64,000 nucleotides of DNA, taken from positions 372,001 through 436,000 of the forward strand of contig VUYT01000003.1 in NCBI GenBank assembly GCA_008802785.1. The letters are read 5' to 3'. Source of the stretch: Symmetrospora coprosmae (taxonomy: Eukaryota > Basidiomycota > Cystobasidiomycetes > Symmetrosporaceae). Numbering within the stretch: position 1 is the first letter of the stretch; each line of letters opens with the position of its first letter. Positions 43,271 through 53,775 of this stretch are shown in pieces. A program made the position numbers and the translations under genes. A model generated the notes under the pieces. The model was not told the origin of the DNA. It saw only the letters and a list, made by a program, of their open reading frames with translations, and did not search any database.

Positions 43271-46200
43271 CTATGGGCCGTTTTGTGCACCGGGTGGCGA
43301 TCGATGCATGGCTGACACTCGATGAGCTGCGTTTTGCGACTTGCGAATTGGCCTTGCACTGACTCTCTGGTAGAAGAGTAGGTAAGGCGTGAAGCGGCTA
43401 CGCTCGGATATGACGTCGGACAGGTAAATCGGTGTCTCTACTTCGTCGTCGAAGCGATACCAGGCACCATCCGGCGCGCAGACCGCTGCTACGTAGTGAC
43501 CTGATTGTAAGGTGCCGCTGTGAGACGTGACTCCATATAGGCGGTAGTCTCCACGCGTGCTTGCGTCCTGTTTCCGTCCGGTTCTCGTCAGCACAATAAA
43601 TGATGGACATTAGGCGCTGGGCACCAGTCAGAAGATGACCCACATCGATGTGTAAGAACTGGTCAACTTTGATGTGGTCCTCACACTTTCCTTCACCTCG
43701 AGACTTGAAACGCTGCAGTTGTATGCACAGTATCTGTGGCGCTCTTGCTATGCGTTCTGAGGTCGAGCTCCATCTATCTCCGCACCTGGAACCACGAAAG
43801 TCAACCGCATCGTCAGTGCTGCACTTTGCTCGAACATGTCTATTTGCCTGCATCTGTTCTGTAGCTGACCTCTCGCAGTGGTAATCGTTAAGGATTCCGG
43901 ACGGTTTTCCGTACGCCTCTCTGAAGGCCGCTGCGACACTGGAATGGGTCTGCACGCTGACGTCCAGGCTGCGAAACGGCGTTTCCTCGGTCTTCGAATG
44001 ATGCTGGCAAGCATTGCAGACCGTGACTGTCCTGGTTGTGCCCTGAAAAAGCGTCTCAACCGTGGGTGTGCGGCCCTGCTCCTGGGATATCCGGTCCAGC
44101 ATCCCTATGAAGAACTCATGGGCGTCCTCTTGTCTGCCCTTCCGCAGGCTTTTGTGTATGCCTGCCGACCAGATTGCAGACGTAGCTCAGCGTCCAGCAT
44201 TAACGGCATGTCAACAAGGATACACAGGCAGAAGAAACGACACATACCTCCGATGTTGTCTCGAATGCTCGTCAGCTCTCGTCTAATGCTTGACATGTCG
44301 CCTCTGTCGTCCCAACGACCGTGGAAGTCGAGCGCCAGCTCACTCAGAGTGCAGATGAGGCAGAATCCTCCCTCATTCCCCACCTCGCCTATTGTAGCAT
44401 CGTCTCAGAGTCAGCTTGGATCCCATCGCACCTCAGCATGAGCTGTGTAGTGGTTGCTCCAGGCTCACACGTCTTCCAATAGTGGTATTTCTTGTCCATT
44501 AGGTACTCGACAAGACCGCCTGTATGCAGGAGTACTTGCAAGATCGAGTTGATGTAGCATGTGTTGCCAAGATTCGGGAGGCCGTATCCGACCGTCTTCC
44601 GTTTACGAATCCAATCAATTGGTACGCTGTCTGCATCTGCGCGGTCGAGATCATGGACGCAAGAGTCCGATCAGCGTGTGGCAGAGCAAGTCAGGAATGG
44701 TAGTGATACGCCACTCACTGCTGCTTGGTGCCCTGCTAGTGCTTTGCGTGAGACTCGGACGGCGAGTTTGACTGGACGGGGCACCGGAATGAACTGGTGC
44801 TCTAGGAGCCGTCTCTGCTGTGCCTTGCTGTTCGACAGGCCAGTCGCCCGTTTGTCCTATCGGATTCGAATGCTGCGGCTCTGAAGGGAACGCGGGGGGC
44901 GGGGGCACCTGTTGCTCTAGTTGATTAGGCTGCTTCGATGGCTTAGCCTTAGACTGCTTAGTTCGCTTCTTAGGTTGCTCAGGCCCTTGCTCCTGTTCTG
45001 GCGCAGCCGGCGAGACGCGCGTGGTTTGAGGTAGGCCTTGTGGGGTAGGTACCGCATGGGCTGCTGTCGCGACATTTCCAGTGGGGTCCCTCGTTCCCGT
45101 GCGGCTTGGAGACACTCGCTGCGAGCCGTTCGCACCCGTCCGAGCGCTAACGGAGCTGCGGCGAGTGTCTGAAACAGCTGAAGGCGGCTGCGAAGTCCTT
45201 AGCGAACTGGAATGGCGGTTTGCGTTCGAGTCGAAGGTCGCTGGCTCCTGTGGCACGCCCCCATCTGTATGTACCTGCTCGTGAGATAGTCCAGAGCGAT
45301 GCGAGCGGGGCGCTCCTGCACTCTCCAGAGCGGAACCGGAAGCGCTGCTCGGATTCGAGCCAGGACTGCTCGATCGGCTCCTGCTGCTGCTTTTAGTGCC
45401 ATGGAGTTTCTTCGCGCTCAGCAAATGCTCGCACCAGAATTGCTCGGTCAATCTGCCCTTGCTGCGCCGACGGCGGAAGAGCGCATCTTCCCGAAATATG
45501 AAGATGTTGCGCCGAGAGTACCAGCGAGACGGCAAATTGGTATCCTGGAAATGCAGCTAATTGTCAAGGTCAGCGGCCTAGCATCGTCCTGGCGCACTCG
45601 CCTGGTCACCTCATGCGACGCTCACCAGATAGACGTGGTTGCCGATTTGAGAGCGCAATTTGCGAGAGCGTCCAGGCAGCCATGCACGAAAGCTGCTTGC
45701 TCTTTCCTCAACGCCGCTTGCAATAGTAGCCTGGCACACTATGTACCGCCACTTTCCCGTCCGAACAACAACGAAGACGACGACACCAGGCTGTCGAAGT
45801 GTTGCCGGTCATTCGTTGGGTTAGAGGAGCCGGGCAAGATCAGCATGCACAGTACATCTATCAGAGCGGAAAGACCATTCTTACGGAGAGATTGTCGAAG
45901 TTGGCCGAGGCCAGCTCGACCTGATCGACTATATCATGTCGCGATATGCACTTGGCTTCCGCACTGTAGTCTCGAAGATGGTGGCCTTTGTTCCGGTCGT
46001 CTGGTGTGTCCACCTCGGCTTTGTCTGGCAGGATAACGATGCTGTCGTGTGCACGCCTGCTGGTATCCCGCTTCCAATACCATGCTGATGCAAGGCTTCT
46101 ATCGCTTCGCCGATAGACGATGTAGTCCCACTGACGCAGGGCTGGGAAAGGGGTGGTATCTGGTAGTCCTAGCTGGTCGATATGGCGGTAACGATAATTG

Positions 46201-47747
46201 CCAGCTGCCGCCTGCCTGGCGTCCACCAGAGCCCTTACGTCGTAGATAGCGATGTCTCGCTCTGTAGGCGCGGTGAGGGAAGGAGACCCGTCAGCCTGGT
46301 GTTCAGATCAGTTACACTGCAATGCAAGACGAAATGCCCCACGCTTTGGTGTCCGCTTGTCGCTCGGTCGCATGCCTTCTACGAGGTTGGTGAGCGCTCC
46401 ACGATCTGCGCCCGACGCTTCAACATTGCGCCGCGTGGAGATGACCAGCTCATAGATCCTTCCGGAAGCGGTTTGACGAATGTCGTGCACAAGTCCCCAA
46501 TGGAGGACGCCATGCTTGTCTGACCCGGAATGGCTATCGCTGTAGAGTATCCAGGAGAATCTTGGGATTTTTGGGAAGAGTTGCGCCCGATGAACGATGA
46601 CGGCGGATGTGAGGAAATGCCGCTTGACGCGCACGAGAGAGAAGTTGTCGCGGCCAAAGTAGGGAGTCGTGCGCAGTCGAGCACGCTCCAATGCCCGGTG
46701 CAACGCGAACCCAATCTTCCGCTGCTGCACTTCCAGCCCAAAGGAGTCACGATTTAAGATGTAGTCTGTACTCTCGAGGGTAGCCCAGTCAACCCCTGCT
46801 TGAAGCATTACGGTGTGATGGGGCATGTTGGGCTCCACGTGCGTTGCTGTCTTGCCTCTCATTATCCTCTGGACGTTGGGCTTCATTGGGAGCAAAGCCA
46901 GCTTGTGGAGCAGATGGGCCGAAGCGGTATCAGCACAGACCCTTGTCCGTCGTGTGAGAAGAGGAGGGAGGAACCGGCAGAGGCAGGCGTCTCACCGGAC
47001 CCAGAATTACGAGATGGACGTCGTTACTTCTCTCCCTCTCACGGCCGTTCCATTCGCCTGGTCCTATGGCCATAATGCGAGCGACCATCTTGATCCACAT
47101 TGTCGACCTCTCACTAGGGTGTAAGAGCACGTTCTGAGCTCGCACCGGAATTGACAGCTTCGTCAAGGAGTCAGTGGTTTGAAGGGCGAGATCGTAGGTC
47201 CATCGCGACGACGAGTCTTTCGCCAGTGCTGATGGAAACGCTTCCCGATACGCTATGTAGTTCCCTGGTCGAGCGCCCTGAATGAGATGGGATACAGTGA
47301 GTTAGACTCTACCTGTTCCGAGACCTGACACTGCCACACACACCGGCAAACACGCGGGCTGGACAATCTTACTTAGGATCCGTCTCTGGTTGAGCATGCT
47401 GACAGGCTGGCTCTTGACGCGCACCTGTCGCGTGGAGAGCAGAGGTCGAGAGGGTGCAGGAGGTGCTGCGGGATGACTCAGGCAGAGGAGGAGGAGAGCC
47501 TAGATTTGCAGCAGCGAGTGAGCTGATCCAGCGCAGTCGAGTGTGCAGTGCATGCCCTCCCCTCAGAATCAGCAGGCGGTGTCACATCAGCATCGTCAAA
47601 GGGAGTTGGATTGCCCTCTCGCAGCAGAGGGGCACAGCTGACTCGGAGCGCTAAGGCGTCTGGAACGGCGGACGGTGATGGATAGGGCTTAAAAGCGCCA
47701 GACCTGCCAATTTTGAGCCCGTCCTCTATATCCAGGAGGGGTAGCAT
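43271..47747 (-). CDS. Fusion of an unrecognised N-terminal region with a ubiquitin-specific protease
   Basis: Secure exons: 47424-47344, 47277-46996, 46901-46343, 46261-45885, 45790-45626, 45556-44719, 44636-44469, 44388-44248, 44161-43644 and 43567-43271 (1141 residues). A first exon from 47747 (MLPLLDIEDG) is tentative. The C-terminal third is a USP: Cys box GLPNLGNTCYINSILQVL, then EDAHEFFIGMLDRI, RAPQILCIQLQRFK and His box SHSGTLQSGHYVAAV with WYRFDD, so it should cleave ubiquitin. The first 800 residues match no domain I know; recognisable pieces are GNYIAYREAFPS, MWIKMVARIMAI, LFPKIPRFSWIL, WDYIVYRRS, ISRHDIVDQVELASANFD and WYSRRNIFIFRED. All of these recur in the neighbouring gene, which lacks the USP. 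A phase-1 intron at 44718-44637 joins the two regions through a Ser/Pro/Gln-rich linker. The Zn-site stretch near 43880-43850 reads atypically. Confidence 0.8.
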
Positions 47748-48294
47748 CTCGGAGCCCCCCTCCCATCACGCTCCCTCTTGCGGTGGCAAGTCAGGCAGCA
47801 TCCTATGTAAGGGGCACCCCACATGTGGGGTGCCAGTCCATAACGGCGCGCAGTGCACTGTGCTGAGTAGCCACGCGGAGGTTCCATGGGCAGATTGCCT
47901 GCTCAGTGATGTGACACTCGAGCGACGCCACACATCTCGCGGGTCCAGTGCCGGTTCATCAGTCGCGTCGGTCGAAGGTGTGCAGCAGAGGCATCATGCA
48001 CTCCTCCCTGTGTGCAGCGCCATCGCAATGGAGCACGCCGGCTTGTGCTGGAACGACAGCGCGCAGGCGAGTACGCCAACCAGTTGTCATGAAGCTGACA
48101 GGCAGCTTTCTGTGACTCTCCCGCATGCCCATGGCGGGTTCACAGCCGAAATCTGGCAGGGAGCTCGGGTCGCGAGGTGAAGGAGGGCGACGTGAAGGAA
48201 GGCGCGAGGGCATTTGTGCGTACAACATACTTCTCTACTCTGTCTCTCTCTACCTTGCCACTACGTTTCGGGAGACCCTCGTGCCTGAGCTGGC
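47748..48294. other. Spacer between the two large paralogues
   Basis: A 547-bp gap holding the fusion gene's promoter and the other paralogue's 3' end. It contains a perfect 22-bp palindrome (47813-47834, listed separately). Open frames in it show no conserved content. Confidence 0.5.
47813..47834. promoter_or_regulatory. Perfect 22-bp palindrome upstream of the protease fusion gene
   Basis: Two 11-base half sites, GGCACCCCACA and its reverse complement, meet in the centre at CACATGTG, an E-box-type core. It lies about 65 bp upstream of the tentative start at 47747. It could be a dimer-bound operator; this is inference from symmetry and position. Confidence 0.45.
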
Positions 48295-50573
48295 TCACTC
48301 CGGATCCTCCGTGACGTGTATGTACTGATCTGGTGGGTAAATGGTTTTCAAGTTACTGCTCGTATTACGGCGTATCGGTGGTCGGCGGGGTGGTGGTGCG
48401 GGCATGCTGTGCGAACGAGCGCGCTGGGTCGGGGGCGTCACGTATCCTGTCCGAGTCTGCGAGGGTGGGTTACTCCGAACTGCGGGCTGCGAGCCCAAAC
48501 CATTAGGTCCTGGTCCTGGTCCTGGGGGACGCCGATTGCTCGGCCTTGCGCCGGGGCTGCTCGACCGGCTACTGCTGTTGCTCTTTGTCCCATGTTTCCT
48601 CCTCACATCGAGTAAGCGCTCGCACCACCGTTGCTCGTTCAGATATCCCAGGCTGCGCTCAAGGCGGACTTGGGCATCTTTCTCGAAGGTGAAGATGTGT
48701 TGCCGCGAATACCATTGCGGTGGAAGGCTGATGCCGTCGAAGTGGAGCTGGAAAGGCAAGTCAGCTACGTCTGTCTGATATGAAGGCACGGAAGTCGGCT
48801 CACGAGGTAGCGGTAATTCCCTATCTGCGAGCGCAGAGAGGGCATCTGACGAGGCCATAAAGCTGTGACTGTGTTCGCAAGCTCGTCTGCGCGTGTTCCC
48901 ATGGATGCTTGGCGTACAGTGAGTCGACCATGCCGGCCGCGATGCACGACGTAGACAATGTCGTGTGGCTGTAGGTAGGGCAGCTACCGCATCAGCGCGT
49001 GATGTGCGAGGATGAACGAGTAAAGAGGGTGTCCCTACTCTAAGTCGGTCAAAGTTGGCCGAGGCGAGCTCGACGAGATCGACAATCTGGTGACGACTGA
49101 TCATCTCTCGTTCCTCTCCTGGACGTGCGTTCCTGTGGTCGTCTGGTGCGTCCGTCTCTGCGTAATCTCTTTGTACGATGATGGTGTCCGGGTCCGCCTT
49201 CGCCCCCCTTGGCGGGGAGCAGTCGTACACCCAAGCTGAGAGTAAGGGTCCGCGCCTGGAGCGCTGGTAGACGATGTAATCCCAGTTCCGCAGCGACGGG
49301 AAGCGGATGGTCGGTGGCGGACGTGTCGGAGTTCCCAACCGATGCCTGTATTTGATCTGAACCGCCTCGGCACCCCGAGCACTTACGAGTGCTCGAACGT
49401 CGGAGATGTCGATCTTGATCGCTGTGTCGGGGGAGGATAAGGTGTGTGTGCATTAGTCTGGTTCACTTGTCTGGTAGCTCGGTAGTATCCCAGACCCTTC
49501 GCATCGTCCGGCTATGCTCACCGGACAGCTCGCGTTCATCGACTGGTTCCAGGCCAAGCTCCCCGTTGGTCGAGTACCCTCCGTATCCTCTCGCCTTAAC
49601 ATCGCTCCGGACCGTGACAGTCAGCTTTCTGGTGAGTCGGTCAACCTTGCGTACGCATGCCCATAGGAGAGTGCTATGCCTCGCATCGGGAAGTCTGCTA
49701 CGACAGAGGATCAAGGACGACATGGGGATCTTGGGAAACAGTGACGCCGAATTGATGATGACTGCCGATGTGAGGCGGCTTCGCTTGACCGTCATCAGTC
49801 GAAGATCGCTGCTGTTGGTGCCGTAGACTGGGTCTGCGTATCTGCCCAACGCGTGATGAAGCTGGACCCAATCCTCGCGCTGGGCTTTGGTGAGATGCTT
49901 CGAGGTGCTGCGATTCAGGAGGTAGCCCACTGTCTCCAGATGGGCCCAGTCTATCGCTCCTCGCGATTTCGAAGCAGTGTTTGCCTGCAGCCAGTCCCTC
50001 ATCCACTCAAGCGGATACACGTTCTTGATCTGCTTCAGACTCCGGAGGAACTCAGCCCGGAAGGGCATCAGTGCCAACTGGACAGGATGCACATGATGTG
50101 AGGTGAGCGCGTACGTCATGCTCACCCTAGCGTCTGCCACCACAGACTCACGGGACCTAGGACCAGGAGAGACACTAGATCGCACTTGACCCTGCTGTCC
50201 CAGTTTATAGCCATCACCCGGGCGACCATTCTGATCCACAGCTCGCTCCTTGAACGCTCAAATACGTTATTATTCCTGACGGGGATGGCTAAATTCGCCA
50301 GCTCGTCGGTGGTGCCAATCGCAAGTCTTGCGTACAGCGAACCGCTGTCCGGGATGACGGCTGGGAACGCCTCCCAGTAGGCGATGTAGTTGCCTGGTTT
50401 GACGCCCTGTGGATTGAAACACGGAAACGAGAGGCAATGAGCTGCTGTTGTGCGGGGATTCGCGTGCCAGAGGCGAGCGACAAGCACGTACGGGTATGTA
50501 AGTTCGGCGGTCCGGCTTGACGATTTCACGAAGGATGCGCTGCATAGATGGCATGCTGCTCTTCGACGCGTAC
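48295..50573 (-). CDS. Unrecognised large protein, paralogue of the protease-fusion N-terminus
   Basis: Supported exons: 50573-50492 (5' limit uncertain), 50406-50152, 50077-49522, 49421-49039, 48968-48804 and 48747-48295; about 630 residues. The true start is unresolved; a plus-strand start at 51041 limits how far it can extend. Exons correspond one to one with the downstream gene in order and phase (255 vs 282, 556 vs 559, 383 vs 377, 165 vs 165 nt). Shared pieces are GNYIAYWEAFPA, LWIRMVARVMAI, SAVIINSASLFPKIP, WDYIVYQRS, ISRHQIVDLVELASANFD, LRSQIGNYRYL, WYSRQHIFTFEKD and KHGTKS followed by Ser/Arg. It ends at 48295 in a Pro/Arg-rich tail (ending YIHVTEDPE) with no protease domain. No catalytic motif or membrane segment is obvious. 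Confidence 0.7.
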
Positions 50574-51040: not shown

Positions 51041-53775
51041 ATGCAGCTGGACGAGTCGTATACGTTGGATTGCTGCAGTGCATCTCCTGATATTCCCGAG
51101 CATGACGAATTGGAGTCGGACTCCGAGCAAGAGCCGGAGTGTGCGGGCGAAGCTGCGACAAGCGAGCAGCGGCAGCAGCAGCAGGAGGACGACGACGGAG
51201 AGGAGCAGGGCATGCTGCAGAAGGACAGCGACATGCAGTGCAGGCTCACGCTCGAGCACAATGCGCTGTCTGCGAGAGACGTGAGTGACCCGGCTTGACG
51301 CGTCGCTGGGTGGCGGAGGAGCTTCAGAAGCAGCACGCTCGTCTACGCGACAGGCGGTACGCAGGCTACGTATCCGTATCCTGACTATGCTATGATCCTG
51401 CGTGCTTCAGTCTATGGCGGTCGATCACGCAAGCAGCACGCCCTCCGATTCCCCAGATGCACGTCCTCTTCCAGGCATCGAGCGTGACAAGAACGGCGAA
51501 GCGGAGACTGCAATGATGCAAGACACCCCGGCACTGACGAGCTCACAAGCTGCCGAAGGGGACGAGCTCGACGAGATCGAAGAAGCAGATTCTCCTGGTC
51601 TCTCTTTCGTCGTCGACGAGACCCTCCCAACTCCCCGCACATCCCTTCCTTCCTTCGCTCCTCCCGACAATGCGCACATAGTGCACCCTCCCAGCCTCTA
51701 CGACCGCGAAGCAGACGAGCAGATAGATGAGTTGTGGTCCAGCGACAGCTCGCAAGACTCCATCGAGTACACGCCGCCCGAAGACCGCGTTCAGGTCGAG
51801 GTTGGCGTCAAGGTAGTCAAGCAGAGTCCGACAAGCCGGAAGACAGCCAAGAAAGAAGAGGAGGACACTGGCTCCTCACTTCCTACTACCCAGCGAGACA
51901 TCGGCGACGTTGCTGAGAAGAAGCCAGGCCAGTCAACGCCGAGAGCCGCCCCTGCCGCTCTAACCCGCCATACCCGGGCTATCACGGCCCCCGCGTACAC
52001 GCAATCGCTCGTCAAGAAGGAATTATCCGAGAAGTTCCCCAGTCTTGTAGCGAACAAGCACAAGGCCAAGGCAGAAAAGGCGCCCAAGCCTAACATGTTC
52101 AAGCCGGCTGCGGCGGTGGAGAAGCCCGATTTATCCCAGCTCGTAAATGCGCAGAAACAGAAGCAGATAGTCCCTCCAGCTACGCCGAAGACCATCAAGC
52201 CAACTCCTATTCCGAGCCTACCAGATCTCGCTTCTCTCGCTCTGGCTAAGAAAGCCAACCATCGCAAGACTGCAGCCGCCTCTTCCGCCACGCCAAAGCT
52301 GAAGAAGCACTCCATGAATGCCTTCCTCTCGCTCGTGGGCAGGACCGATTTGCACGTTACCCCTGCAGCTCCTCTGCCCGCCAAGGCCGACAGTGGTCCG
52401 ATGACGCCGAAGATCGAGAAGCCTCGCTCAGCGAAACTCGCAGCGCCGATCGATGTCCGCACCCTCGTGGCAGACGAGGGCTACGAATCTGCCGAGAAGG
52501 GCCAGAACACCATCGCCGAACACCTCCCAGTCTTTCGCTGCTTTGCGTCGAGCCGCATGCTACAGAATGTCACCATGGACCGGGCGCTGCTCGATTGTTC
52601 GGTCGACCTCATCTACCCCGAGGAAAACGCCCGTCAGCTCACAAAGACGCAGCAGGCCAAGGGTGCCCTTCCGGCGTCCGAGATATACATAAGTGAAGCA
52701 GACGTCGTGCTCTCTCCAGCAAGTGGAGCCATCTTCTACCCGCTCGACAGTGTGTACCGGCTCGCTACGCTCCAGCAGCTCGATGGGAGCATCGAGAAGG
52801 TGCCCCACTCGCGCGTCCTCCTCCAGGCCATTCAGACACTCTCTCATACTCTAGACAAGGTCGTCCTCGTCTTTGAGGCTTTCTCACGCCCGCATCCTAT
52901 GACCGGCGCCGTCAAGCCCGCAACCGAGGCCTTCACTCCCGCCGTGAACCGGGCGCTCAAGACGCTGCAAGACAAGATTGCCGAGATGCGGCATGCAGCA
53001 TTAGCTGCAGATGGGAACGGGCGCGTAACGGCCCTCGCTGAAATCGAGATCTGCTATGCGGGGAGCGCCGGGCAGGCTGCCCAGCTAATCCGAGAGCGGA
53101 TTGAGCCGCGATACGCGACGCACGACAGCCTCGGCCACGTCAAGCTCGATTCGGCTATGCTGGCGCGACTGCCGCTCAACAGGCTCTCTGCGCACGTTGT
53201 TGTCGTGCAGGCCGACTCATTCGACGATTTCGTTGCGCTACCGGTGGACGAAAGGACGGAGAACTACGGGCATCTCTTCGGCCAGCGGCGAATGGTGCGT
53301 CCAGTGTCTCAGCTGAAAGCCGGCTAGCTTCCCGTGGCAACATGCTGACTCAGAAGCACCATGGCAGACCACCATAAACGAGCTCTGTGAGCAGATGCAC
53401 CGGCCGCATGTCGTCGGCCACCCCAATCATGATCAGCAAGCAGCCCCGTCGAGGCCGAGCTACGCAGCAGCGCACGAGAACGCAGCAAAAGTGCCCGGTC
53501 CTCCAACCTCCACCCAGATGGCGGCCGCTCGCCATGCAGCCGAGCGAGCGCGGTTCACCGGCGATCTCGACGGGGAAGCAGGGCAGGCTACGCTCCAGCG
53601 GCAGATGGAGGAGTGCTACGCGGCGCAGCGACAGGACTACGAGGCATCGCTACAGCAGCAGGAGGAGCAGGCGTCCTCCTCCTCGCCGAGCGCGATGGTG
53701 CAGCATGCGCGCGCAGTCAAGCGCGAGGCTGAGAGCGACAGAGATGCAGGACAGGTGAAGAAGCGCAGGCGGTAG
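51041..53775 (+). CDS. XPF/ERCC4-fold protein, possibly ZIP2/SHOC1-like
   Basis: Exons 51041-51280, 51411-53298 and 53354-53775 give 849 residues. The first 350 residues are acidic and low-complexity, with Lys/Pro/Ala-rich linkers. The region from about VFRCFASSRMLQNVTMDRAL to the second exon's end has the shape of a degenerate ERCC4 nuclease fold: DLIYPEENARQ, then ISEADVVLSPASGAIFYPLD, LLQAIQTLSHTLDKVVLVFE and EICYAGSAGQAAQLIRERIE, followed by a helical piece (NRLSAHVVVVQADSFDDF; ERTENYGHLFGQRRM). That order fits the meiotic ZIP2/SHOC1/SPO16 group, but the active-site acids of true XPF nucleases are not evident and this naming is tentative. The last junction is ambiguous: donor 53299 gives the long form ending KKRRR, donor 53295 (GTGCGT) gives a short form ending soon after. 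Confidence 0.55.

Follow-up and report, generated by a model that had tools for sequence, protein, structure and literature searches.

Two neighbouring genes on the minus strand

Two adjacent genes on the minus strand, here called A and B, occupy positions 50554-48295 and 47397-43271 of the window, i.e. the whole stretch of 64,000 nucleotides that was analysed (C33:372001-436000 of a 20.05 Mb assembly in 77 contigs, with a GC content of 60% in the window). Both gene models were built only from sequence and homology, including splice signals, and predict a protein of 624 amino acids from six exons for gene A and one of 1104 amino acids from eleven exons for gene B (Table 1). A Pfam scan of nine open frames in the window gave a match for six of them and none for the other three, the matches being to EF-hands, protein tyrosine phosphatase, the TRPY1 linker domain, the complex I 49-kDa subunit, PEX13 and EF1-gamma. 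One of the three frames without a match is 51396-53324, the divergent neighbour of gene A. Genome size, GC content and the style of the introns, together with the TRPY1-type gene, suggest that the DNA is from a fungus and probably from a basidiomycete.

Table 1. Positions of the modelled exons of genes A and B and of the intron at the fusion point.
Feature	Position in window	Strand	Remarks
Gene A exon 1	50492..50554	minus	ATG at 50554
Gene A exon 2	50152..50406	minus	
Gene A exon 3	49522..50077	minus	ends in phase 1
Gene A exon 4	49039..49421	minus	carries the ISRHQIVDLVELASANFD block
Gene A exon 5	48804..48968	minus	165 nt
Gene A exon 6	48295..48747	minus	shared region ends here; Ser/Pro/Arg-rich tail with TGA stop follows
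Gene B exon 1	47344..47397	minus	ATG at 47397
Gene B exon 2	46996..47277	minus	
Gene B exon 3	46343..46901	minus	ends in phase 1; weak donor GTGGGG, set by homology to A
Gene B exon 4	45885..46261	minus	
Gene B exon 5	45626..45790	minus	165 nt
Gene B exon 6	44719..45556	minus	shared region ends here; low-complexity linker; without Met
Gene B intron 6 (fusion intron)	44637..44718	minus	phase 1, GTGAGT...CAG
Gene B exon 7	44469..44636	minus	USP Cys box; codon of Cys785 from 44559
Gene B exon 8	44248..44388	minus	USP
Gene B exon 9	43870..44161	minus	USP, GRQEDAHE box, zinc Cys 910, 913 and 957
Gene B exon 10	43644..43785	minus	USP, zinc Cys 960; weak donor GTGGGT
Gene B exon 11	43271..43567	minus	USP His box (codon of His1030 from 43498), Asp1046/1047, stop

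Two donors of gene B are poor, and that of intron 3 (GTGGGG) was picked from the alignment of A with B whereas that of intron 10 was picked for continuity of the USP domain. With the GTGGGT donor of intron 10 the frame is unbroken and B aligns with USP36 and Ubp8 throughout the core. A CTRAY motif was absent in three of the 15 introns of the two genes (A1, A2 and B8). The first-pass annotation had placed the end of the upstream copy in a Pro/Arg-rich tail, and the stop of gene A (TGA, 48297-48295) does lie within a tail of this kind, which is rich in Ser as well. A donor-like GTGAGC (48298-48293, minus strand) overlaps this stop; it is in phase 2, which is a mismatch with the phase 1 of B exon 7.

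A and B are diverged tandem paralogues

The two genes had been described as tandem paralogues with at least five exons in common order and phase, and the comparison of the models agrees with this and raises the number of homologous exons to six. By blastp 241 of 556 positions were identical between A and B (43%, E = 2e-106), a similarity far beyond chance. All five introns of gene A match the first five introns of gene B in both alignment column and phase (column/phase 21/0, 115/0, 312/1, 446/0 and 501/0). The amino-acid identities for exons 1 to 6 were 44, 55, 36, 55, 40 and 55%, respectively, and the exon pair previously singled out as identical at 165 nt (exon 5) is equal in length and 40% identical in amino acids.

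Among 507 aligned codons 106 were identical, and the differences at codon positions 1, 2 and 3 numbered 221, 180 and 306. The dN was 0.54 and the dS 2.4 according to NG86 and the dS was 1.7 according to LWL85, where the dS values apply to the alignment as a whole, and the synonymous sites look saturated. Given that six homologous exons are open in both genes despite this apparent saturation, the comparison points to purifying selection on both A and B. The GC3 of A and of the parts of B was 0.56-0.67, lower than the 0.69-0.82 of six neighbouring open frames, and this might be the pattern of weakly expressed, fast-evolving genes.

The tail of A and the linker of B both contain the motif HGTKSxSxSRSSSPGxxPS, beyond which their likeness is only such as results from biased composition, and comparison of the flanks of A and B gave only short chance matches besides the intergenic stretch, which is at the same time the 3' flank of A and the 5' flank of B. 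A perfect 22-bp palindrome (GGCACCCCACATGTGGGGTGCC) is found in this intergenic region at 47813-47834, and its core (CCCCACATGTGGGG) was found nowhere else in the 20-Mb assembly; the palindrome could be a binding site or form a hairpin in the transcript.

Gene B contains a complete USP domain

The downstream copy had been reported to contain a USP with intact Cys and His boxes, and what was found is a complete UCH domain (PF00443) that also has the Asp and the Cys of the zinc ribbon. The full B protein scored 146.5 bits against a curated cut-off of 23.9 (E = 1.4e-42), with the match extending over residues 777-1072 and profile positions 2-254, and the E-value for the protease part alone was 9.1e-44. 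UCH and UCH_1 were the only Pfam families found in B at E up to 1. C785 is located in GNTCYINS, H1030 in SGHYVA and D1046/D1047 in RFDDE, and these we take to be the catalytic residues, their positions aligning with those of USP36 and Ubp8; the four Cys of the zinc ribbon are residues 910, 913, 957 and 960. With UCH above the curated cut-off and the catalytic residues in place, B is a member of the USP family (peptidase family C19), and as predicted from these residues it is most likely a deubiquitinase.

In a search of PDB sequences with the USP of B, human USP36 (PDB 8bs9, E = 3.2e-28) and the yeast SAGA deubiquitinase Ubp8 (PDB 4fip, E = 3.4e-28) were leading among the best 60 of 100 distinct sequences matched, and the catalytic core of Ubp8 is as similar to B as that of USP36. 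A scan of the genome gave 31 UCH exon matches at about 15 places (grouped by eye). The B domain was 31-43% identical to single exons of a gene at C11:398-399k and 25% identical over 305 residues to a gene at C44:153k (USP7-like by eye). One exon of the C11 gene matched USP36 with an E-value of 7.3e-26, the best other molecule reaching 1.8e-8, and this gene is clearly the USP36-type member of the genome. B has in common with the USP36/USP42-type proteins, represented by human USP36 and the C11 gene, the USP core with the Cys, His and zinc residues kept, but it differs from them in that the core is preceded by about 530 orphan residues and a linker. In a seven-row tree with junctions made by eye B formed a long branch outside the starred pair of USP36 and the C11 gene, and it was connected with Ubp8 and with this pair through an open fork (85/87). 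The USP of B is probably a diverged member of a USP36/Ubp8-like type, the tie in similarity and the long branch not fixing the subfamily.

Unlike Ubp8 and USP22, which have an N-terminal zf-UBP, B showed no zf-UBP match in Pfam at E up to 1. When the genome was searched with yeast Ubp8, a single-exon USP7-like locus came first (2.6e-23) and the best exon of B reached 1.9e-6, a ranking in which the exon-by-exon scoring disadvantages split genes such as B. Given the missing zf-UBP and the low rank in this search, a derivation of the B domain from Ubp8 was not supported. Elsewhere in the genome zf-UBP was above the cut-off at three places, none of them at B (C8:301k, USP5-like by eye; C11:761k, USP39/SAD1-like by eye; and C44:629k), EnY2/Sus1 had one match above the cut-off and Sgf11 had two, both below it. 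No clear Ubp8/USP22 gene was seen in the assembly with exon-by-exon searches, which can miss split domains. Another unusual open frame resembling a USP is present at C49:35500-38500; its His box is of the GHY type and is followed by a long stretch lacking annotation.

The shared region lacks a significant match in four collections

The region of about 530 residues that A and B share, referred to below as the module, had been described as lacking any recognisable domain, and this held when Pfam-A, NCBIfam, PHROGs and PDB sequences were searched. For the module of either A or B Pfam gave no family at E up to 10 (with one 256-aa piece of A, Raptor_N reached E = 0.17, which is below the cut-off of that family), the single NCBIfam line at E up to 1 had an E-value of 0.28 and fell far short of its cut-off, and no match was obtained with PHROGs at E up to 1 or in a profile search of PDB at E up to 10. 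DUSP, MATH, UBL, zf-UBP and rhodanese were not found in the module with Pfam, and a USP N-terminal family, to which the whole region might have been assigned, was not mapped onto it in any of the profile searches.

In the 20-Mb assembly the module is, as far as found, carried only by A and B. Searches of the genome with the module, which score the best candidates only and proceed exon by exon, gave seven and 12 matches, of which six and 11, respectively, were exons of A or B. Two candidates for a further copy were rejected as chance matches: C12:225658 (E = 0.0625) did not return when full-length A and B were used at E up to 20, and C26:102523 (E = 0.254, or 1.65e-4 when only three loci were searched) was off-frame with respect to the 764-aa open frame at that place and had no further exons after it. 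Scans of viral_contigs and genome_contigs gave 28 pattern matches each, none of which was confirmed by tblastn; these sets consist of viral and prokaryotic DNA and have little bearing on eukaryotes. AlphaFold2 models of the exon-4 and exon-3 pairs had mean pLDDT values of 37.0 and 35.2 and contained nothing usable for the fold.

A weak repeated motif can be discerned on the minus strand in exon 2 (PGxxPGNYIAYxEA, 50406-50365), exon 3 (FPKIPxxSxILY, 49738-49706) and exon 4 (FPxLRxWDYIVYxR, 49302-49261). Internal repeats are not claimed for the module: two of six unit pairs gave p ~0.01 by column shuffling (uncorrected), and with hhalign the best of the six (P = 0.033) was another pair than these two.

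The first-pass annotation regarded this arrangement as the best candidate in the window for something undescribed, which is right in so far as the module has no match in the four collections named above. In fungi it is common for a USP to have no other recognised domain, and a passage of a review (PMC9599802) lists six yeast UBPs of this kind, which makes the setting less strange than had been implied. The same passage assigns MATH to UBP15, DUSP to UBP12, rhodanese to UBP5, UBL to UBP6 and zf-UBP to UBP8 and UBP14, and terms such modules possible regulatory domains (PMC9599802). B is like these module-bearing proteins in consisting of a module and a USP core and unlike them in that its module matches none of theirs in Pfam and that a tandem paralogue carries the module without the protease. 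A narrow search of the open-access literature did not find the combination of this module with a USP.

Fusion to the protease and origin of the pair

The downstream copy had been proposed to cross a phase-1 intron into the USP, and the model of gene B has precisely such an intron, which joins phase 1 to phase 1 and has CTRAY branch-like motifs 58 and 38 nt from its end. The alternative, in which the USP exons form a gene by themselves and the fusion is a modelling error, is highly improbable. In its favour, intron 6 is a prediction from the sequence; against it, this intron is canonical and in phase, and the frame of exon 6 is open for 838 nt up to its donor. The Met residues of B are found at positions 1, 78, 82, 87, 118, 126, 138, 144, 289, 805, 846, 882 and 1093, so that there is no in-frame Met between residue 289 in exon 3 and the catalytic Cys785, none in exons 4, 5 and 6, and none before the Cys box in the open frame of exon 7. 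Because no in-frame Met lies between that of exon 3 and the catalytic Cys, the protease exists in the gene B model only as a fusion. In the modelled frame no separate start is available to the USP exons, the fusion is forced by the predicted gene structure, and a protease-only start would require an exon beyond those seen.

For gene A a Pfam search with all 624 amino acids at E up to 10 gave no family and hence no UCH, and when the USP was compared by tblastn with 47398-48900, behind gene A, no relic was found with an E-value better than 0.62. Whether the protease was gained in B or lost in A is not readable from the locus itself. We lean slightly towards loss in A, given that a duplicate can be truncated in fewer steps than it takes to capture a USP. 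The reading that we regard as somewhat more probable than not is that a fast-evolving gene was duplicated in tandem long ago and that B is a deubiquitinase steered by its module and A a module-only competitor, protector or scaffold. A distinct possibility, though one that we would not favour, is that the ancestor had the module only and that after tandem duplication a USP gene next to the downstream copy was captured by it, in which case A would keep an old function unrelated to ubiquitin and B would be the later recruit. Gene A does form a complete unit that runs from a start through six exons to a stop, and the junction in B falls within a phase-1 intron and a stretch of low complexity, which makes capture easy. 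The lack of a USP relic behind A also agrees with capture, but it says little, as relics would be erased at such divergence, and there is no donor to point to, the closest USPs of the genome being those of C11 and C44 with at most the identities given above. It is quite improbable that A is a functionless duplicate in the course of decay. The missing protease, the low identity of exon 3 and a GC3 that is low for the window would fit with decay, but A has retained six open exons and intact splice sites at a dN of ~0.54 with saturated synonymous sites, and a pseudogene of such age would carry stops.

Possible function of the pair

The bare architecture of B is modest, as it is common for a USP core to come with further modules, and USP modules direct substrates or location. 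In B the low-complexity linker joins the module, made up of the first ~530 residues, to the USP, and the module would most likely bring the predicted deubiquitinase to a particular partner or place. Gene A, with the module only, would most likely bind the same or a related partner and act as a non-catalytic competitor, protector or scaffold. We infer the folding of the module, the enzymatic activity of B, the targeting role and the role of A, and by analogy with USPs carrying MATH, DUSP, UBL, rhodanese or zf-UBP modules it is most likely that module and linker would place the protease and that A would be the module-only competitor or scaffold. At 43% identity A and B may have different partners, and the function of A could be unrelated to ubiquitin. 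A more far-reaching proposal, which we regard as unlikely, is that the module constitutes a new domain family and that the two proteins form an antagonistic pair, in which B would strip ubiquitin from the target of the module and A would block the same site.

Should both the fusion and the stand-alone copy be confirmed, the way in which a deubiquitinase is steered by a non-catalytic module could be studied on a natural example that possibly includes its own competitor, and the pair would put a name to a domain family absent from the profile libraries searched.
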